A stretch of DNA of 64,000 nucleotides. It comes from an uncultured Oligoflexia bacterium. GTDB lineage: Bacteria > Bdellovibrionota > Bacteriovoracia > Bacteriovoracales > Bacteriovoracaceae. Under the pieces are notes generated by a model, which saw only the letters and a program-made list of their open reading frames with translations, did no database searches and had not been told where the DNA came from. Positions 7,936-63,720 of the stretch are shown here, one piece after another. The number at the start of each line of letters is the position of its first letter. The first letter of the stretch is position 1. The stretch spans positions 186,001 through 250,000 of the forward strand of contig CAJXPQ010000003.1 of NCBI GenBank assembly GCA_913058265.1, in the 5' to 3' direction. Made by a program: the position numbers and the translations under genes.

Positions 7936-7964
7936 TTAACCCCTCGATTGAGGGGTTTTTTTTT
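7936..7964 (+). terminator. Intrinsic terminator after L31
   Basis: CCCCTC and GAGGGG form a six-pair GC-rich stem with a GATT loop, followed by nine T residues. A textbook rho-independent terminator. Confidence 0.95.
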
Positions 7965-8059
7965 GCCTAAAATCTATACACCACAGTAATAGCTACAGAA
8001 CAGATTGATTCAACTCATTAAGTACCTCTAAGATGATAGTAATAAAAATAGGAGAACTA

Positions 8060-8128
8060 ATGAAGAAATACTACTTGCAGTAATCTGTACTTGTATATCT
8101 ATGAGTATATTCTCGGCGACAGAGATAG
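8060..8128 (+). pseudogene. 5' remnant of a small exported protein gene, cut by the insertion sequence
   Basis: GGAG at 8051 leads to an ATG and a signal-peptide-like start (MKKYYLQ) that hits a stop after seven codons. Reading one base on restores ...SIFSATEI, which matches LVFGATEY at the signal-peptide end of the intact gene at 9871. The left inverted repeat of the insertion sequence begins at 8129. This is therefore the first 70 bases of a frameshifted tandem paralogue of the 9871 gene. Its 3' flank survives on the other side of the element, and the middle has been lost. Confidence 0.6.
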
Positions 8129-10375: not shown

Positions 10376-11539
10376 TTAAGAAGCAAAACTATATTTAAAA
10401 TCACTCTTGCCTTCAAATATTCTTTTAAATCTCTTCAGCTGAAAACTTAAATCCTTCCTAAGCTCAATTGGATTCAATGAGCTAAAAGTCGCAATTAGTT
10501 CTTCCTTTTCGTAAAGACTAAGCGTGCCTGACTCGAGTAAGCGCTGATATGGTGTTTTTGGTTTATCAAAAGTTCTTCTGTATTTCGCTCCAACTCTTTT
10601 AACCTTAATACACTTATGCTGGGGAATAAAGTAATTATATAGAACATTAAAATAATTTTTGTAAATATCGTTCATGACAAAAATTAATTCTTCTCTATCA
10701 TATCTTTCGTAACCAAATATTTCCCTTACGTGGGTAAAGTTCTTTTGTTCAACATGAGCATTATCATTACTCTTGTAAGGTCTTGAGCGAGTAAAATGTA
10801 AGCCTTTATCTTTGGTAATATAGTTTTGTAGCATTTCATTCAGAAACTCAGTTCCATTATCTGTATTTAATGTATGAACATTATAGGGGAGATCCGAAAA
10901 GATCGACATGAAGCCGCAAGTGACAGTGAGTCCTGACTTTCCAAAAAGAGCTCTGTTTTCTGTCCAACCTGTCACTTCATCAGTAACAGTTAGAGTCCAT
11001 ACAAATTTTCCTGAGAGTGAGTTTCCACAATGTGCGACAGTATCTGCTTGAAGCGCTCCTGGGATTTGTGACCTTTTAGTAAAATCCTTAATCGGAATTA
11101 TATTTAAGAAATTCTTTGCTCTAACAGTCCCAGTACGCTTTGTTCTAGCAAACTGTTTTCTATATTTTTCAAGATATCTATCAATTGTTGAATGTGACAT
11201 AGAAAGAATTTCTTCTTTAATTTGAGGATTAAAACCAATCCCATCATAAAAGCTGAGCCAAGTCGGGAAGGCAGCAACCATCTTTTTAGAATTTATTCGC
11301 CTCATGATATGCCATAATTTCTTTAGATGAGTAATTGACTCTTCAGAGTATTGCTTTGATCTCCCAGAGGCCTTCTTACCTGTTTTATGGCCCTTTGCGA
11401 GTATTCTAATGGCCCATTTGCGATCATAACCAGTAATTGAGCACAACTCATCTAAAATGACTGATTTTTCCTTTTTTGATGATTTGAAATAACGCTCACG
11501 AATTGTTCTAATATAAGTACTTTTAAAGTCCAAAGTCAT
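10376..11539 (-). CDS. DDE transposase with integrase core (IS481/IS1202-like)
   Basis: 387 residues. An N-terminal helix-turn-helix region (about 20-130) precedes an rve integrase core. The catalytic triad is visible as Asp166 in LQADTVAH, Asp227 in NTDNGTEF and Glu264 in AHVEQKN, so the D-to-E spacing of 36 fits the family. The NGTEF and RSRPYKSNDNAHVEQ segments are typical of the integrase-core transposases of IS481 and IS1202/ISNCY groups. AAGGAA precedes the ATG with suitable spacing. The frame is intact. It is not related to the transposase at 8158. Confidence 0.88.
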   Translation of the reverse strand: MTLDFKSTYIRTIRERYFKSSKKEKSVILDELCSITGYDRKWAIRILAKGHKTGKKASGRSKQYSEESITHLKKLWHIMRRINSKKMVAAFPTWLSFYDGIGFNPQIKEEILSMSHSTIDRYLEKYRKQFARTKRTGTVRAKNFLNIIPIKDFTKRSQIPGALQADTVAHCGNSLSGKFVWTLTVTDEVTGWTENRALFGKSGLTVTCGFMSIFSDLPYNVHTLNTDNGTEFLNEMLQNYITKDKGLHFTRSRPYKSNDNAHVEQKNFTHVREIFGYERYDREELIFVMNDIYKNYFNVLYNYFIPQHKCIKVKRVGAKYRRTFDKPKTPYQRLLESGTLSLYEKEELIATFSSLNPIELRKDLSFQLKRFKRIFEGKSDFKYSFAS

Positions 11540-12592: not shown

Positions 12593-12997
12593 TTAGTGAT
12601 TTGCAGAACATTGGGAATCAGACTCGCATTTACCGTGTCTGATTTTCATATTTTTAATATGTGCTGTAATTAAAATGATAGAACCAATGACTGTAGTTCC
12701 GTGTGAAACAGTTTTACTTACATAGTCATGAAAAAAGACAGCGCATAAGGTAAGCGTTATTCCAATTAAAGCAAGTCCAATAATATCGTAATGTCCGTGT
12801 TCCTTACAAGTTGGATAGACTGCTAATAAGATTGATGAAGTCACAAGAACGGCAAAAATCTGATGGGTAATTTCAAAGTGTATATTTGTGAACATAGAAG
12901 CTGGGAATAGAATTAAGAGAATGGGAGTTGCTAAGCAGTGAATAAGGCAAAAGCCTGATACACAGATACCGACTTTATCCCAAATTTTATTAACCAT
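12593..12997 (-). CDS. MerC-domain membrane protein
   Basis: About 134 residues with four hydrophobic segments. The first holds GICVSGFCLIHCLATP, the cysteine and proline pattern of MerC mercury-transport proteins. The C-terminus has further cysteines (KCESDSQC). MerC proteins sit in the inner membrane and pass Hg(II) inward, but many chromosomal MerC-domain proteins are without a mer operon, as here, and their metal is unknown. The start at 12997 is preferred because the first hydrophobic segment follows directly and AAAGAG lies upstream; ATGs at 13012 and 13039 are alternatives. It is divergent from the giant exported protein gene. Confidence 0.75.
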   Translation of the reverse strand: MVNKIWDKVGICVSGFCLIHCLATPILLILFPASMFTNIHFEITHQIFAVLVTSSILLAVYPTCKEHGHYDIIGLALIGITLTLCAVFFHDYVSKTVSHGTTVIGSIILITAHIKNMKIRHGKCESDSQCSANH

Positions 12998-13090
12998 TGT
13001 ACACTCTTTCATTGCAGGAATATAGCAGAAATGTTTCATATGGAAAGTTTTATCTCAGAGTAAGGCATAATTTTCATATATATTTCAAGT

Positions 13091-13105
13091 GTATAAGACT
13101 TATAC
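13091..13105. promoter_or_regulatory. Palindrome GTATAAGACTTATAC, candidate activator or operator site
   Basis: A perfect 7-1-7 inverted repeat in the 209-bp gap between the MerC-like gene and the giant gene. It lies about 60 bases upstream of the -24 element of the sigma-54 promoter, the usual side for an enhancer-binding protein. It could equally serve the divergent gene. Confidence 0.45.
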
Positions 13106-13164
13106 AAACAGACCGCAATCACTATTACTTACCAATCTAAGTAGCTAATAATACATAAATGTTG

Positions 13165-13180
13165 TGGCATTAATATTGCT
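13165..13180 (+). promoter_or_regulatory. Sigma-54 promoter (-24/-12)
   Basis: TGGCATTAATATTGCT matches the sigma-54 consensus TGGCAC-N5-TTGCW with GG and GC exactly ten bases apart. The expected start site is near 13191, giving a leader of about 15 bases with GAGAGG before the ATG at 13207. It predicts activation by an AAA+ enhancer-binding protein. Confidence 0.7.
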
Positions 13181-13206
13181 TCTATATAGGTACGTTGAGA
13201 GGTTAA

Positions 13207-16200
13207 ATGAACTTTATTTTGAGTATGCTATTCATCTTGTTTACTAATTCTGCAAATGCCGGAAACGTGGATTCATCTGTCGTTTGTATGCATAACTATG
13301 ATGGACTTGCTTATGGATGTGTAAAGGTTGCCGATGAATTATCAAGTAAATCATGTAGAGAGAAACATAAGAATAACGAATTAGAAGCTTTTTATTTAAG
13401 TGATACCTGTACCCATGAACTATCAGCAGAGTTACGTGGCGAGGAATTTGAGCAAGTTGAACGAGTTCAAATTGAAGTAAGTTGTTTCACTTATGAGACA
13501 GGAAGTAAGTATAGTTGTGAAATATATGATTATGAGCCGGCATATCAGTATTGTGCTCAAAAATATGGAGATAAGTATCTTCCTCACCATCCATCAGTTA
13601 GTTGTAATACAAAAAATGTCGAAATGGAGCTTGGCTATGTAGAGAAGGCGAAGTTAGTTGAGGGTCTTAAGGCAAAGATTGAAGAAGCTGAAGCGCTTCT
13701 GACCATGATTGATCGAAAGGGTATGAAGAGTTCATTACAGGAACTTATGACAAACAAACCAGTGATCGGGAATGAATTCTATACAGATGTCATGAAAGGG
13801 CTGCTATCAAAACTAAAGATAATTAATGCCGAAATTGAAAGAAGAAGTGCTTATAAAATTGATTTTGCGTGGGTAGAGGCAGAAGAATTTAGATCATACA
13901 TTGTGAGGTATTTATCACTTGTCGGTAGAACCTATCAAGTTTATGCCTTTGTAGCTCATAAAAATCATAGTGCAATTGAAACATATGACTTTAAAAACCT
14001 TGATTACCTCGATCTTCGTATAAAAAGAGATATGGCCTTAGAAGTTATGGCCAAAATAAATGTAAAGGCCACATCATCTACTTTTGATGATTATGTTTAC
14101 CTTACAGAGTCAGAACAAAATAAACAAATCTATGAATATATGGCGATATCAGAACCTGCAAATAAAGTCGACTATGCCAAATTAGTTGCCTTTATGGGGA
14201 TTAGAGAAAATATCACAAATCTCTGGGCCGTTGATAGAATGAGTTCAAGAAATCTCTTAAGAAGTAATGTGAGAAGTTGTGGGAATTTTTTAAGTATTAA
14301 GCGCTCAAGTAGCATTGGAAATATGGCGGTAGTTAAAGAGAATACAGAGTATGATATCTTCTATAACGACTACCTTGAGAGACAAAAAGACTTGTATGAG
14401 CTTGTAAAGGATCAATTATATTTAAATCAAAGTGACTTAAAGGATTTTCTTCTTAAACAGTATAAAGAAAATTCTGTATTCCAACAATATATTAATGATG
14501 GGATGCAATCTCCAACAGAGAGTAGAGTCGAAGAGATATTACTGCAGGATTCGGGCTTAATCGTTGAAGGTCTTTTAGAGGATATGAGATCCTTTTTAAA
14601 CTATAATTTAAGATCCTTTGTATTACCTGGCGATAATGTTTTAAGTAAAAAAAGTATTGCTGAAAGAATCTCTTCCGAGATTTATTTAAGGCAGTTTAAG
14701 ACGGTGAAGATGTTTGTCACTGGCCTTTATCCGTGGATGGGAAATGAGGCACAGGCTAAGATGGAGGCAGCGATTCAAGAATTTTCATTCTTTAACCTTG
14801 AACTGACTTTTAAAGGAAAACTAAATAATAAAATACAGAAATTCTTAGGCGATTATGCAGATAAAGATCTACTTTCATCTAGAAACTATGATAAGAAGGT
14901 TTCTGAGAATTTGGCCATTGTTAAAGAATTTGCAAAGCATGCTAGTCTAGCAGTAAAGCATGATCGCAAAGAGAATATTAAGGTAAGGCCTACTTCTGTT
15001 GAAGAACTATTTACTCTCTTCGAAACAAAAATTAGTAAAGATTTTCAAGACATAAAAATCACTCTAGAGAATGATAAAGAACTGGCAGAAGTTTTAAGTG
15101 GATTTTTTAATAAGCTAACAGGAAAATTCAATGCAGAATATCTTGTGGAAACTGAAAACCAACAATACGGACTTAAAGGAACTGACGAAGAAAGGTCTCA
15201 AGCTCTTTGGGAAGTTATGTTTGATGTTGCAAGAGAATACTATGAAGAAAACAAATTTGAAATTTCAGGATTAGCACAAGTTCCAAATGCTGTAATGCTT
15301 TCACGTGATAGAGAGCAAATGTCTAATTCCCCTTATACGATTCAGGTTTATCAAGATGGAACACCTGTTGCCCTTCATATCAATCAATTTTATGAAGCAT
15401 TTCAAGAACAAATTAATATTGAAATTCCTCGTCGTGATATTGTTATGCGCTCAGGAGCTTTACTTGGAATTAATGAGTTGGATGACTATGGTGATCGTAA
15501 TATAGAGGATCATATTACTGACGGTACTTTTGGGCGCCCTTATAGCTATATTTCTGCCAAGGGAGAGTTGCGCTATGAGAATGTTGATAGCGAAATTGGC
15601 TTTGAATCTTTAAAGCGGTTATATCTTCAATCAATGGATTTCACTAAAGATGAAATTAAGCACAATCTTGTCATTAAACGCGATGAAGAAAAAAACATGG
15701 AAGAGTATAAAAAAGAGATGTTAGAAGACATCGAAATTATAAAAAACTCTCAGCAGCTATTTGCACGAGTCTTTGAACTCTTCAAGTTGCCGATGGGATT
15801 TATTGCTAATAATACGATGATGGGTAGCTTTAACCTATCAACTGAAGATGAGAAGTATTTATTAACAAATAAGCTATCCCAAGCTTATGGTCAATCAGCT
15901 TTACTCAAAAATCATCTAGAGACTGTAGAGGAATTCGAAAAATGGGTTATGCCTAGAAGAGACTATTCTCAACCTTACAAGATGACTTATCATGAAAAGA
16001 AAGAACGAACTTTGTTATTAAAGATTGGTTATCACGCTTTTAAAGATAATGCTTTTGATGAAGTTGTAGCAACAGATCTAATAAAGAAAATGATTAAAAA
16101 AGCACAGGACAATACATACGGTAAATTACAAAAATTCTGTGCAGCTAATTATGAAGACTATAAAAATGATGATGACTTTAAAGATACATTCTCAGCTTCA

Positions 16201-17769
16201 GCATTTTTAAGAAGTACTTTAAAGAACGGACAGGGAATGGCAAAGACTTCTGTTGCCAAAATTAGAACATTAGATGAAAACATACGTAAGGAAACTCGTA
16301 CTAAGCTTCAAGGAATAAATGAAGATTACCTTGAACCCGGGATGATGTATCTTGGAGTTGGTTTAATTGCTGCTATGTTAGTGGCCGGAGCCTTAATGGC
16401 GACTGCTGCTACAATGGGAACGGCTGCACCTGCTGCAATTGGTGGAATGGCAGCATTATTAGGACAAGTTGTTGTCTACTCAAATTATGTTTTCCTCCCT
16501 ATCATCATTGCTTCAACTTATAGTCGTTTAAATACTCAGTTTTACGAAGTGCCGGAACAACTAAAATTTCAAAAATCAATTGCTTACTCTCAAATTGATA
16601 TGGCAAAAATTGCAGATCATGATATGGCGGAAGAGCAGAGAAAAGAAAATCATACTAATAAGCTTTGGACTATAGGGTTTCTACCTTTAGACATTTGGTT
16701 TGGTCATTCAGTGGCAGTACAGGTAAGAACAACACTCGGCTACACAGGAGTTAAGAATTATAGCAAATTAACTGGTATGAAGCTTAAGATGTATTCTTCG
16801 CCGCCCCAGTTACAAGGTAATACTTATAAAGTTAATCGTCGTAAATATGGTTTACTACGTGGAAGTATAAAAAGTGCAGCAGAATCTACGAGACGAACTA
16901 TTCATCGTCTTCCGAGATACCAAGTTATGCCAACTGAGTTAATTCAAACTGCTCCCCTTAGAATGGGAATTGCCAATAAGTTTAGAGAACTCAAACTTGG
17001 TGCCACTCCATGGAAAGTCAATGATGAGGTAAAGCAATACAGGTCTATGTATACTAATCGTGTATCTAACTATCATGATTACCTTAAAGAGAAGGCAAAG
17101 GGGATTGCGAATCTATCCCTTGTCAAAGGATTGAAGGTGACAGAAGTCTTCTCAAATGGATTCTGGAGATACAGCCGTAAAGGACTTACAATTGCATCTT
17201 TTATTCGCTCAATCAAGAAGGGTAACGTAAGAGATTTTGTCAGACGCCATGGTAGACTAATGCAAAAACTTGATTCATGGCAATTGAAGGTCGTTTTGAA
17301 GAAAACCGAGCGACTTGATTTACTTGTTAATAAGATTAGTGAATTTAAAAAAACATATAAGGGAACTCAGGCAAATGATAATTTGATTGATGATATGCTT
17401 GCCACACTATCTGATGAAGAACTTCACCTATTACTTGAGGTTGGTAAGAAGACTAAAGGCGAACTATTGGGGCTTAAAAAGGTCTTTAAGTTACATGTAA
17501 GTCTTGTGCAAAGCTTAAAGCCAACTGTCTATCAAACTGCTGGAGTTGGTGAAAATGTTGGGCGATATGACAATTTCCTCGCTGATGGAGTCGATACTAG
17601 GCAAATTTTTGATAGTGATACTGAAGATATTGTTAAATACTATGAGGGTGTCATGAGACAAACTTATAAAGTTGATATGAAAGACTCGAAAGAGTTCTTA
17701 GATACTTTGGAGCTAAAGGTACAAGACTTATATAAAGTTAATTCCGATGGAACGCGTAATTTTCTATAA
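13207..17769 (+). CDS. Giant exported protein (1520 residues), unknown
   Basis: I recognise no known family. A signal peptide of about 18 residues ends NSANA. The first 135 mature residues hold two copies of a four-cysteine module: C27-C38-C50-C68 and C93-C104-C116-C133, both with spacing C-x10-C-x11-C-x16/17-C. A long, charged, mostly helical region of about 900 residues follows. A hydrophobic hairpin rich in Ala, Gly and Met lies at about 1046-1110, and a basic C-terminal part of about 400 residues closes the protein. With a cleaved signal and two spans, the bulk on both sides of the hairpin should be periplasmic. It is transcribed from a sigma-54 promoter, so expression is probably conditional, for instance tied to a life-cycle stage (inference). 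It converges with a lipoprotein gene 8 bp away. Confidence 0.8.
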   Translation: MNFILSMLFILFTNSANAGNVDSSVVCMHNYDGLAYGCVKVADELSSKSCREKHKNNELEAFYLSDTCTHELSAELRGEEFEQVERVQIEVSCFTYETGSKYSCEIYDYEPAYQYCAQKYGDKYLPHHPSVSCNTKNVEMELGYVEKAKLVEGLKAKIEEAEALLTMIDRKGMKSSLQELMTNKPVIGNEFYTDVMKGLLSKLKIINAEIERRSAYKIDFAWVEAEEFRSYIVRYLSLVGRTYQVYAFVAHKNHSAIETYDFKNLDYLDLRIKRDMALEVMAKINVKATSSTFDDYVYLTESEQNKQIYEYMAISEPANKVDYAKLVAFMGIRENITNLWAVDRMSSRNLLRSNVRSCGNFLSIKRSSSIGNMAVVKENTEYDIFYNDYLERQKDLYELVKDQLYLNQSDLKDFLLKQYKENSVFQQYINDGMQSPTESRVEEILLQDSGLIVEGLLEDMRSFLNYNLRSFVLPGDNVLSKKSIAERISSEIYLRQFKTVKMFVTGLYPWMGNEAQAKMEAAIQEFSFFNLELTFKGKLNNKIQKFLGDYADKDLLSSRNYDKKVSENLAIVKEFAKHASLAVKHDRKENIKVRPTSVEELFTLFETKISKDFQDIKITLENDKELAEVLSGFFNKLTGKFNAEYLVETENQQYGLKGTDEERSQALWEVMFDVAREYYEENKFEISGLAQVPNAVMLSRDREQMSNSPYTIQVYQDGTPVALHINQFYEAFQEQINIEIPRRDIVMRSGALLGINELDDYGDRNIEDHITDGTFGRPYSYISAKGELRYENVDSEIGFESLKRLYLQSMDFTKDEIKHNLVIKRDEEKNMEEYKKEMLEDIEIIKNSQQLFARVFELFKLPMGFIANNTMMGSFNLSTEDEKYLLTNKLSQAYGQSALLKNHLETVEEFEKWVMPRRDYSQPYKMTYHEKKERTLLLKIGYHAFKDNAFDEVVATDLIKKMIKKAQDNTYGKLQKFCAANYEDYKNDDDFKDTFSASAFLRSTLKNGQGMAKTSVAKIRTLDENIRKETRTKLQGINEDYLEPGMMYLGVGLIAAMLVAGALMATAATMGTAAPAAIGGMAALLGQVVVYSNYVFLPIIIASTYSRLNTQFYEVPEQLKFQKSIAYSQIDMAKIADHDMAEEQRKENHTNKLWTIGFLPLDIWFGHSVAVQVRTTLGYTGVKNYSKLTGMKLKMYSSPPQLQGNTYKVNRRKYGLLRGSIKSAAESTRRTIHRLPRYQVMPTELIQTAPLRMGIANKFRELKLGATPWKVNDEVKQYRSMYTNRVSNYHDYLKEKAKGIANLSLVKGLKVTEVFSNGFWRYSRKGLTIASFIRSIKKGNVRDFVRRHGRLMQKLDSWQLKVVLKKTERLDLLVNKISEFKKTYKGTQANDNLIDDMLATLSDEELHLLLEVGKKTKGELLGLKKVFKLHVSLVQSLKPTVYQTAGVGENVGRYDNFLADGVDTRQIFDSDTEDIVKYYEGVMRQTYKVDMKDSKEFLDTLELKVQDLYKVNSDGTRNFL

Positions 17770-17777
17770 GGGTAAGT

Positions 17778-18695
17778 CTAGTATAAGTTACAAGGCTTGC
17801 CTTTAAGTCTTCTTAAAGCTGCCGTTGCTTCATCATCTGTATAACCTAATACATCTTGGAAAGATTTTTTTGTAGCATCATCAAGTTGAGCCGAAGTAAA
17901 TTTAACCCCTGCACCATTATTATCTACCATTTGCTCTACAAGGCGTGCTCTATATATATCGACATTAGCTTTAATTTCTAAAACTTCTAAAGATGCAGAT
18001 TTTGTAAAGGCTTCACATCCTTCTCCCATCGCTGGAAGACCAGTCCTTCTAGTAATAGTCGCTGCACTCTCAACAATCTCTTGACCATTTGCTAGCGCGG
18101 CCGGTGTCGTCATCCCTCTTTCTTGCATTGCAGCAAGATTTTTTCTTAAAACCTTTTCAACTTTTGAATTCTCTAATTGTTGTATCGATGCAAGAAGTCT
18201 CTCTTGTTTCTCTGAGATTGATGAAATCGGTGATACGACTTTTTGTCTATTTCTTCTTCTATTTGATGTCGGAGAAATCACTTCGTATGGATTTATTGAT
18301 TTTCTTTGTGCCACTACAATGGCTTCATAGACCTCGGCCGCAATTTTTTTATCAATACTTGAACTCACTTTATTAATATTTTCCATTGCCCATTTTCTTA
18401 CTTTAGGCATAAACGCGTGACCGTCACTTAGGTTTTTTATTTGTCCTGCTTGGTCCTCTGTAATTCCAAGTGCAACATAGTTTGGATGGTTGCTATTTGC
18501 AGAGCGGCCTTTAATATAAGCAATTATTTCTTGCTCTAGCGCCTCTTCTGACTTGTTTGTCTGAGTACTTAGTTGCCTAATAAATTTCGAAAATAACTGT
18601 CCACTGGCCAAGACTCTTTTACCTTTCTTTTGTGGCGATGTTTGACATCCAACCATTAGTGTTAACATTGATATTAAGATCAAAAATTTAGTCAT
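17778..18695 (-). CDS. Lipoprotein of unknown function
   Basis: 305 residues. A short signal ends LTLMVGC, a good lipobox, so the protein is lipidated on the cysteine. The mature part is polar and mostly helical, with a basic RRRNRQK patch and two C-terminal cysteines (EGCEAF and KPCNLY). No family is recognised. GGAG at good spacing sets the start at 18695, although the open frame extends 31 codons further upstream. It converges with the giant exported protein gene and is divergent from the aldehyde dehydrogenase gene. Confidence 0.75.
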   Translation of the reverse strand: MTKFLILISMLTLMVGCQTSPQKKGKRVLASGQLFSKFIRQLSTQTNKSEEALEQEIIAYIKGRSANSNHPNYVALGITEDQAGQIKNLSDGHAFMPKVRKWAMENINKVSSSIDKKIAAEVYEAIVVAQRKSINPYEVISPTSNRRRNRQKVVSPISSISEKQERLLASIQQLENSKVEKVLRKNLAAMQERGMTTPAALANGQEIVESAATITRRTGLPAMGEGCEAFTKSASLEVLEIKANVDIYRARLVEQMVDNNGAGVKFTSAQLDDATKKSFQDVLGYTDDEATAALRRLKGKPCNLY

Positions 18696-18713
18696 AGTAC
18701 TTCTCCGTTTATT

Positions 18714-18748
18714 TTCTACAATGATATTTTCGACATTTTGTTGTAGAA
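18714..18748. promoter_or_regulatory. Inverted repeat in a divergent intergenic region
   Basis: TTCTACAA (18714-18721) and TTGTAGAA (18741-18748) are perfect inverted arms 19 bases apart, in the 76-bp gap between the lipoprotein and aldehyde dehydrogenase genes. It may be a shared operator. Confidence 0.4.
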
Positions 18749-18771
18749 TCTTAAGCAAAGTAGGATTATTT

Positions 18772-20181
18772 ATGGATAAAAGTATCATTAGCGAGACATT
18801 TAATAGTCATTTAGAACATAAATATGCTCAAAAGAAGACTTCTCATGAGTATCGGATTAAAAAACTACGAGATTTGAAAGCTATTTTACTCTTAAATTCT
18901 CAAAATATAGAAGAGGCACTAAGGAAAGATTTCGGTAAGGCACCCATGGAGTCAGCAATGACTGAAGTTCTCCCTACTATCACTTCTCTTAATCTAACGA
19001 TTAAGAAGCTAAAGAAGTGGATGAAGCTGACAAAGGTTTCTAGCTCCATTTTATTTTTTGGATCTACAAATAAATATTATTATCAGGCCAAGGGTAATGT
19101 GCTTATAATCGGGCCTTGGAACTATCCTTTTCAGCTTGCACTTATTCCTATCATTACTTCTTTTAGTGCAGGAAATACAACCATCTTTAAACCCTCAGAG
19201 TTTACACCTCATATTAATAAAGTGATTAAAGCTATTTGTGAGCAAGTATTCACTGACCAAGAATTTTCGATAATAGAAGGGGATGCCCAAACTAGTCAGG
19301 AGTTACTGGACTTACCATTTGACCATATCTTCTTTACAGGAAGCGGTCATGTTGGAAAACTTGTTATGGAGAAGGCGAGTAAGCATCTTGCGTCAGTTAC
19401 CTTAGAGCTTGGCGGCAAGTCTCCTGTACTGATTGCTCCTGATTATGATCTAAGCACAGCAGCTAAAAATATTATTTGGGGAAAACTGGTGAATGGTGGC
19501 CAAACTTGTGTTGCTCCAGACTATGTTCTCATACACAAAAATCAATATAAAGAGTTAATACCTCTATTGGTTCAAGAAATTAAAAATAGATACGGCGATG
19601 ATATTTCAAGTAACGAGGATTATTGTCAAATCATTACCCCTAGGCATGCAGCTAGATTAAAAGCAATGGTGGACGATTCTAGAGATGCTGGCGCCACAAT
19701 TAACTGTGGTGGTGAAGTTCTTGTTGGAAATAAAATCGCTCCAACGATTATTGGTAATGCTAGCAACGATATGAAAGTGATGTCAGAGGAAATCTTCGGT
19801 CCCTTGCTTCCTGTTATGACCTATAAGGATATGGACCATGCTGTCTCGTTAATCAATGAGCATGATAACGCTCTTGCATTGTACTTATTTACTAACTCTC
19901 AAGGAAGTATTGATAAAATATTGGCCGAAACGAATAGTGGAAGTGTTGGTATCAATGAGACTCTACTTCATGTAGGAAATGCTAATCTTGCATTCGGTGG
20001 CGCCGGTAAAAGTGGACTTGGCCGTTATCACGGAAGACTTGGATTTGTAGAGTTTTCAAATTTACGAGCTGTGGCACATAGAAAGTTAGCAATGGGTCTA
20101 GATTATTTTTATCCGCCTTATACAGATCAAAAATATCGACTCTTAAAGAAATTAATCACATCTTTTAATCGGTTTCTTTAA
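18772..20181 (+). CDS. Aldehyde dehydrogenase (class 3-like)
   Basis: 469 residues. It oxidises aldehydes to acids with NAD(P). Visible motifs are GPWNYPFQL in the cofactor domain, FTGSGHVGK at the dinucleotide-binding turn, LELGGKSP with the general-base glutamate, and NGGQTCVAPD with the nucleophilic cysteine. The short N-terminus and the C-terminal extension with hydrophobic residues fit the class 3 / fatty aldehyde dehydrogenase group, so long-chain aldehydes are a plausible substrate. The start at 18772 has AGGA upstream; a reading from 18721 is possible but has no ribosome binding site. It overlaps convergent pyrD by 17 bp. Confidence 0.93.
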   Translation: MDKSIISETFNSHLEHKYAQKKTSHEYRIKKLRDLKAILLLNSQNIEEALRKDFGKAPMESAMTEVLPTITSLNLTIKKLKKWMKLTKVSSSILFFGSTNKYYYQAKGNVLIIGPWNYPFQLALIPIITSFSAGNTTIFKPSEFTPHINKVIKAICEQVFTDQEFSIIEGDAQTSQELLDLPFDHIFFTGSGHVGKLVMEKASKHLASVTLELGGKSPVLIAPDYDLSTAAKNIIWGKLVNGGQTCVAPDYVLIHKNQYKELIPLLVQEIKNRYGDDISSNEDYCQIITPRHAARLKAMVDDSRDAGATINCGGEVLVGNKIAPTIIGNASNDMKVMSEEIFGPLLPVMTYKDMDHAVSLINEHDNALALYLFTNSQGSIDKILAETNSGSVGINETLLHVGNANLAFGGAGKSGLGRYHGRLGFVEFSNLRAVAHRKLAMGLDYFYPPYTDQKYRLLKKLITSFNRFL

Positions 20182-62229: not shown

Positions 62230-62931
62230 ATGAAAATTATATGTTTAGCTTTATTTATGAGTTTAATACTTTCCTGTGGAGAGCTTGCACCTGTTGAGTC
62301 TGAAGATGGAACAAGCCAAATAGGTCAACTTAGAGCGTTCACTTCTGATGATAAGTATTCAGATGAAGAAGTGGTCTATGCCACAAAAATTTGTGATGCC
62401 TTAAGAAATAAAGAAACATACTTTGACCGTGTCATGGTTAATAGTGGAGGTGAGCTTGCTTTTGATCTAAGCGTTGCCGACTGTGGAGTTGAAGAGTCTT
62501 CAGCTCAAACAGAATCTTTTACTTCAGCTGTTATAACGAGTGGTTCAAGCCTTAGACTTTCTACTGATAACACAAATGCTATGAAAGATATTGTGACCTC
62601 TAGTTCTAAAATTATGAGCGATATTTGTAGTGGAATTACTGGTAAGAATAGATACTTTGGTGGCAAATCAATTATGTCTTGGTCCTACCTTGTGGACGAT
62701 AGTAACTCTAAATGTAGTGGTTCTGATAATTATTGTTTACTGGTTGAAACTGGTTATAGTACAGATGGAGAAGACTACAAAATTCTCGATAAAGAGATTT
62801 ATAATATTGCTGATAGCGGTGAGCAGGTTAGAGGTATCGTTTCTTATCGATCTTACCAGACTGCTCAGAGATGTACTGGTAAGGATACTTACCTTAAAGA
62901 GCAAACCTTCAAAGGCTCAGTTTCAAACTAA
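62230..62931 (+). CDS. Cysteine-rich lipoprotein, first of a tandem pair
   Basis: 233 residues. Lipobox ILSC. Clearly paralogous to the gene at 63031: both share IGQ-RAF--DDKY-DEEVV, KIC-AL-NKE-YF, then six cysteines in the same order (KIC, DCG, DIC, KCS, NYC, RCTG) and G-DTYLKEQ-FKG near the end. The six cysteines could form three disulphides. Function unknown; surface or periplasmic location is inferred from the lipobox. Confidence 0.75.
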   Translation: MKIICLALFMSLILSCGELAPVESEDGTSQIGQLRAFTSDDKYSDEEVVYATKICDALRNKETYFDRVMVNSGGELAFDLSVADCGVEESSAQTESFTSAVITSGSSLRLSTDNTNAMKDIVTSSSKIMSDICSGITGKNRYFGGKSIMSWSYLVDDSNSKCSGSDNYCLLVETGYSTDGEDYKILDKEIYNIADSGEQVRGIVSYRSYQTAQRCTGKDTYLKEQTFKGSVSN

Positions 62932-63030
62932 GCCTATGTCAATTTATTGGCGTATTATTCAATGTGTGAATTGGACAATCTGAGTCAAAATCTCTATCCT
63001 TTTAATAAGTAATCATTATTAAGAGGTATT

Positions 63031-63720
63031 ATGAAATATTTAATCCTAGTTTTATTTATAAGTTTGTTATCTGGATGTGGACCTGTTGAAGAAGATGAGC
63101 AGGAAGAAGGGGCAATTCAAATAGGCCAAGTTAGAGCTTTTAAAGCTGATGATAAATATACTGATGAAGAAGTCGTTATTGCTTCTAAAATTTGTGAGGC
63201 CTTAGAAAATAAAGAAATGTACTTCAATAGTGTCATCGTTAATCGAGGTATTGAATTATCATATGATTTAGACGTAACAAAGTGCGGAGCTACTTCAGCT
63301 CAAAAAAGTTCTTTCTCTTCGGTAGTGGCGAGTAGTGGATCCAGTTTAAGTCTTTCAACAAATACTTTGGGCGCCTTTAAAAACATTGTCACCCCAAGTT
63401 CAAAGGTTGTTAGTGATATCTGTAAGGGAATTAAGAGTAAGAATAGGTACTATGGAAATAAGTCTATAATGTCTTGGTATTTTCTTGTTGATAAAAGTAG
63501 CTCTCAGTGTAAAGGGGAGAATAATTACTGTCTATTTGTAGAAACAGGTTTTAGCTCCGATGGAAAGGATTATAAGACTCAGGCCATAGAGGCGTATAAT
63601 ATTACAAACAGTAGTAGTGAGATAATAGGCCTAGTAACAGCAAGAGCGTTTCAAACTGCTCAGGGGTGTACTGGTAGTGATACATACCTCAAGGAACAAG
63701 TCTTTAAAGGTACTCTTTAA
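63031..63720 (+). CDS. Cysteine-rich lipoprotein, second of a tandem pair
   Basis: 229 residues, paralogue of the gene 99 bp upstream. Lipobox LLSGC. After an acidic linker (EEDEQEEG) it has the same six-cysteine pattern and NYCLFVETG, QGCTGSDTYLKEQ motifs as the first copy. The two have diverged by roughly half by eye, so the duplication is not recent. RBS AAGAGG. The 99-bp gap may carry its own promoter (TTGGAC, 18 bases, TATCCT, weak). Confidence 0.75.
   Translation: MKYLILVLFISLLSGCGPVEEDEQEEGAIQIGQVRAFKADDKYTDEEVVIASKICEALENKEMYFNSVIVNRGIELSYDLDVTKCGATSAQKSSFSSVVASSGSSLSLSTNTLGAFKNIVTPSSKVVSDICKGIKSKNRYYGNKSIMSWYFLVDKSSSQCKGENNYCLFVETGFSSDGKDYKTQAIEAYNITNSSSEIIGLVTARAFQTAQGCTGSDTYLKEQVFKGTL

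Follow-up and report, generated by a model that had tools for sequence, protein, structure and literature searches.

The window analysed here, a stretch of 64,000 nucleotides, is part of a 3.23-Mb genome in 25 contigs. The locus under study consists of a giant gene (protein P0001), a divergent MerC-family gene and a convergent gene for a lipoprotein (Table 1). The next gene (17778-18788) being convergent, the giant gene is monocistronic, in agreement with the single downstream gene of 1520 residues described in the initial annotation. Transcription is predicted to start at about 13191, as inferred from the -24/-12 element. An integrase-core (rve) transposase-like gene is also present near the giant locus, at window positions 10376-11539 on the minus strand.

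Table 1. Features of the giant-gene locus (window coordinates).
Feature	Position	Strand	Basis and remarks
Predicted -24/-12 sigma-54 promoter TGGCATTAATATTGCT	13165..13180	+	GG 13166-67, GC 13178-79; conserved at close homologues
17-bp dyad TGTATAAGACTTATACA, presumed enhancer (UAS)	13090..13106	.	Perfect 6/6 arms; centre about -93 from the predicted start
Shine-Dalgarno GAGAGG	13197..13202	+	4 nt 5′ of ATG 13207; from sequence
Giant exported protein P0001, 1520 aa	13207..17769	+	ORF; homologue family
Signal peptide MNFILSMLFILFTNSANA	13207..13260	+	Sequence; charged n-regions clearer in homologues
Two tandem 4-Cys repeats	13285..13605	+	Sequence; model; cysteines of second repeat invariant in close family
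Hydrophobic helical hairpin, residues ~1033-1113	16303..16545	+	Hydropathy; model; turn at near-invariant G1071
Partner lipoprotein, 305 aa from MTKFLILISMLTLMVGC	17778..18695	-	Lipobox; ORF opens at 18788
Divergent MerC-family gene	12593..13039	-	PF03203, E 2.4e-22; upstream region common with giant gene

A sigma-54 promoter had initially been proposed upstream of the giant gene from a GG and a GC ten bases apart, and this spacing was found in the sequence, in a site close to the consensus. The window contained exactly one zero-mismatch match to TGGCAY-N5-TTGCW. In the genome the pattern gave 22 matches, compared to 2 with the reversed pattern used as control, so a chance origin of the promoter match is unlikely. 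The genome encodes RpoN (PF04552, E 5.7e-61) together with several PF00158 activators (enhancer-binding proteins, EBPs), up to nine of them strong matches. Conservation pointed in the same direction: a -24/-12 element was located just 5′ of the start in all six full-length close homologues (the giant gene itself counted), whose proteins are 27-32% identical, and also at the remote giant genes L066, L154, L167, L171 and L172 and at some members in the phylum's other families, many remote giants lacking a strict site. Within 416 kb of giant loci, 11 of the 15 strict sigma-54 sites were at giant starts, and the reversed control gave one. Every computational test made, namely the -24/-12 element, the presence of rpoN and EBP genes and conservation at orthologues, thus indicates a sigma-54 promoter, as first proposed. 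That the giant gene is driven by another promoter and the -24/-12 match is fortuitous might be argued on the grounds that the promoter was read from sequence, not expression; the retention of the element in six of six close and several remote homologues, together with the strong enrichment over the reversed control, makes this explanation highly improbable. Most of the genomic TGGCAY-N5-TTGCW sites directly precede a gene. For about 14 of 17 such genes the product is exported, compared to 18 of the 52 window genes (Fisher p 7e-4), exported status having been assigned by a simple rule and in part by inspection by eye.

The palindrome GTATAAGACTTATAC at 13091-13105, put forward in the initial annotation as an activator site, is at its stated place, although the functional unit extends it by a base at either end (TGT...ACA). 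The resulting dyad is a degenerate form of a conserved one, TGTCTAA-N3-TTAGACA, which five other giant genes carry 65-87 bp ahead of their promoter. Dyads of the form TGT-N11-ACA were located at -73 to -75 from the TGG at the giant gene itself and at L058, L059 and L061, while that of L171, TGTCTAAAGTTTAGACA, is at -65 and that of L172, TGTCTAAACATTAGACA, at -87; no clear dyad was found at the close homologues L060 and L062. Of 11 promoters, 5 had a strong dyad, whereas 400 null trials gave 0.36 on average and 3 at most. Scanning with a dyad matrix, trained partly on sites that it then scores, revealed more copies 5′ of giant genes or cassettes in L156, L157, L158, L164, L167 and L169. Conversely, the genome search that had been suggested for the palindrome gave a negative answer: as a bare pattern with up to two mismatches it was not enriched in the whole genome (18 matches vs 26 in the control), and we rejected the idea of a frequent regulon box. 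The dyad is supported because of its conserved position upstream of homologues, not because of its frequency. Elsewhere in the window, a good dyad, TGCCTAAAATCTATACA, is found at 7964-7980, where no sigma-54 site could be detected, followed by an apparently broken short exported gene near 8060.

The MerC-family gene and the giant gene have a common upstream region, and the dyad was also weighed as an operator of the former, unrelated to the giant gene. A distance of 51 bp to the MerC start codon, on its upstream side, and the low frequency of the dyad in the genome would suit such an operator; nevertheless, the distance between dyad and promoter is kept in homologues, among them L059, L171 and L172, loci without a divergent merC, and the dyad recurs beside sigma-54 sites across the phylum. 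We consider this explanation very unlikely, and the MerC-family gene is probably not the target of the dyad.

When dyad and promoter were combined in one compound pattern, TGTCNAANNNTTNGACA-N35-65-TGGCAYN5TTGC, matches were found in 54 of the 369 genomes of the phylum and none in the reversed control. Among 30 compound-site loci examined (L174-L203), about 25 carried exported-protein genes downstream, against 18 of 52 window genes, and the products behind the sites included PLD-like proteins, a PAD-type deiminase, an Lnb-type protein, many lipoproteins and one giant. An exception to this rule is seen at L195 and L197, where the compound site precedes a related gene pair that looks cytoplasmic, with no signal peptide seen. 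On the basis of these counts, the compound sites appear to define a conserved sigma-54 regulon of exported proteins, which is the main new result of this analysis. The predicted switch, made of a sigma-54 promoter and the dyad and sometimes present in a weaker form, is also placed before many further genes for exported proteins in the phylum.

In the host genome no exact compound site was found, and a relaxed version of the pattern matched only L040 and the giant gene. Graded dyads are present 65-97 bp upstream at the PLD-like gene L035, at L040 and at L041. Orthologues of the L041 product, with E-values as low as 4e-25, are encoded behind the compound sites of L192, L193, L196, L198 and L203, and L035 is similar to the PLD-like genes at compound sites. 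At L041 (1543-2547, plus strand), which encodes an N-terminally anchored conserved protein, two tandem dyads are found ahead of the sigma-54 site. These similarities indicate that the regulon in the host genome probably extends to one PLD-like and one conserved anchored protein. The 'dedicated' part of the conditional system initially envisaged has to be modified, as the giant appears to belong to a broader regulon of exported proteins.

The giant protein itself had been described as belonging to no known family, and indeed it had no match in Pfam, NCBIfam or PHROG. Searches for relatives identified family members in 15 of 129 genomes at the level of the order and in 34 of 369 at that of the phylum, spread over five families. 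Since three genomes of the same genus do not encode a giant, its distribution is patchy. Named records encoding close relatives are Bacteriovoracaceae, Halobacteriovoraceae or uncultured Oligoflexia MAGs, which places the host organism in this group, and in the host genome only the giant itself was matched, with no close paralogue. Family members are mostly about 1400-2300 aa long, and the 34 long ones have conserved positions such as E310, N338, R1002 and G1071. A phage origin was considered and rejected, as no relative was found in viral contigs and no PHROG matched P0001. Judging from these comparisons, the giant belongs to an unrecognised family.

Inspection of the protein agreed with the features first noticed in it. 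A signal peptide is plausible, with cleavage between ANA and G, and the eight N-terminal cysteines (C27, 38, 50, 68, 93, 104, 116 and 133) form two tandem repeats with nearly the same spacing (C27-x10-C-x11-C-x17-C, then C93-x10-C-x11-C-x16-C). In the structural model these repeats have like secondary structure and a pLDDT mostly around 90, and they are present in the close group. Models were obtained for an N half (residues 22-762, pLDDT 83) and a C half (770-1520, pLDDT 72). A fold search of both halves against solved structures (PDB) gave nothing at E<=0.001, and the N half had no significant fold match among viral models (BFVD). The hydrophobic hairpin is present as two long helices (1033-1069 and 1074-1113) in the C-half model. 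G1071, at its turn, is found in 31 of 32 members, and almost every family member has a hydropathy peak at the corresponding place; in the giant itself hydrophobicity is moderate, with a peak of 1.9. The predicted layout is hence a pair of 4-Cys repeats, a helical body and a hydrophobic helical hairpin. One relative, L167 (2559-8381, minus strand), carries near its C-terminus (residues 1707-1769) a canonical DnaJ domain (E 1.1e-23) that includes HPD. Such a domain is surprising in a protein destined for export, and it suggests that the C-terminal region can meet a cytoplasm.

We then considered the gene next to the giant. In sequence searches, the seven genomes with a close giant were also those with the partner lipoprotein, apart from a single weak additional match. 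Similar-sized exported proteins adjoin most remote giants, and weak alignment outside the close group suggests that the partner is homologous beyond it. Two other lipoproteins of the window, tandem paralogues at 62230-63720, have a common motif, IGQ(L/V)RAF.

Taken together, we consider it quite probable that the region 13090-17769 is a sigma-54 unit in which an EBP acts at the dyad, that the exported giant takes part in an envelope machine with the lipoprotein in one phase or condition, and that the same switch is set before other exported proteins. According to this model, an EBP would bind the dyad and contact RpoN polymerase waiting at the -24/-12 element, and on arrival of a signal its ATP hydrolysis would open the promoter. 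The giant would then be exported by Sec and fold, with its 4-Cys repeats oxidised and with a large helical body, and the helical hairpin would hold it in a membrane. Giant and neighbouring lipoprotein would work as an envelope machine produced only in one phase or condition, and the same switch would govern PLD-like and small anchored exported proteins, both in the host genome and phylum-wide. A membrane-anchored envelope machine is the most likely biochemical function of the giant.

The main rival to this model is that the giant is a secreted or delivered effector whose hairpin inserts in the membrane of another cell, as an alpha-pore or a translocation hairpin. In its favour, the profile search of the PDB gave four matches only (E 0.58-0.87), each of them to an alpha-pore-forming toxin and each located at the hairpin (1022-1083); the J domain of L167 would need a cytoplasmic Hsp70, and the giant is probably co-regulated with exported PLD-like proteins. 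However, the toxin matches are interrelated and not significant, and the fold search did not add to them; the hairpin fits a permanent anchor too, and a third membrane crossing, if there is one, would let the J domain point into the cytoplasm of the producing cell. Delivery into another cell is, on balance, rather unlikely, and the envelope machine remains our preferred reading. Regarding the ClyA-superfamily alpha-pore-forming toxins (Hbl L1, NheA, MakA), the giant may resemble them in the long helices and hydrophobic hairpin of its pLDDT 72 model, and shows the weak profile alignment there, whereas they have about 370 aa compared to 1520; membership of this superfamily was rejected, with profile matches at E>=0.58 and no fold match at E<=0.001.

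The best-known bacteria of the Bacteriovorax group are predators of other bacteria, and group membership makes predation likely for the host organism too. One could imagine that a single activator reading TGTCTAA-N3-TTAGACA runs a phylum-wide, invasion-stage sigma-54 regulon of exported proteins in predators, the giants inserting their hairpin in the prey membrane and bringing the C-terminal region, which in one relative has a J domain, into the cytoplasm of the prey; we regard this as a long shot. Many genes of these bacteria are of unknown function; in Halobacteriovorax marinus, hypothetical proteins amount to 39-40% (PMC5760749). An easily searched, conserved DNA signature marking putatively co-regulated exported proteins offers a handle on which of them act together, and when. 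The giants, for their part, form a large class of proteins that has neither a known fold nor a name; being tied to a specific switch and a lipoprotein partner, the family is open to genetic tests.

As to which activator reads the dyad, no EBP gene was seen beside the compound sites examined, and locating the activator by dyads near EBP genes was rejected as not informative. NCBIfam gave no equivalog above cut-off for the host EBPs; the GlrR equivalog in particular is absent from the host genome, where the best EBP, L078, scored 379 bits against a cut-off of 763. At L082 and L030 (G000:C5:97018-98500), an EBP gene has a sigma-54 site and a small helix-turn-helix-like gene behind it, a possible autoregulated pair.

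The locus shares with known sigma-54/EBP promoters the GG-N10-GC -24/-12 element, an RpoN and EBPs in the genome and an upstream dyad at enhancer distance. It differs from them in the content of the regulon (exported proteins, the giant family) and in the dyad TGTCTAA-N3-TTAGACA, neither of which was found described in the literature searched. The same was true of sigma-54 function in the Bacteriovorax group, the RpoN-like gene bd0843 of B. bacteriovorus HD100 (PMC3464611) being the only result of the sigma-54 literature search on Bdellovibrio/Bacteriovorax. The closest likeness is to the GlrR/QseF system, whose site TGTC-N10-GACA is found at E. coli glmY and rpoE (PMC8745638, PMC4987338, PMC6075780): in both cases TGTC...GACA half sites are located upstream of sigma-54 promoters, with envelope-related targets. 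In contrast, the spacer is N10 there and N9 here (a 17-bp dyad, one base shorter), inner AA/TT are conserved here, and small RNA targets there are replaced by exported proteins here. Because of the shorter spacer and of host EBPs that score below the GlrR model cut-off, we did not file the locus under GlrR/QseF; to judge from these sequence comparisons, the switch would work like that system without belonging to it.
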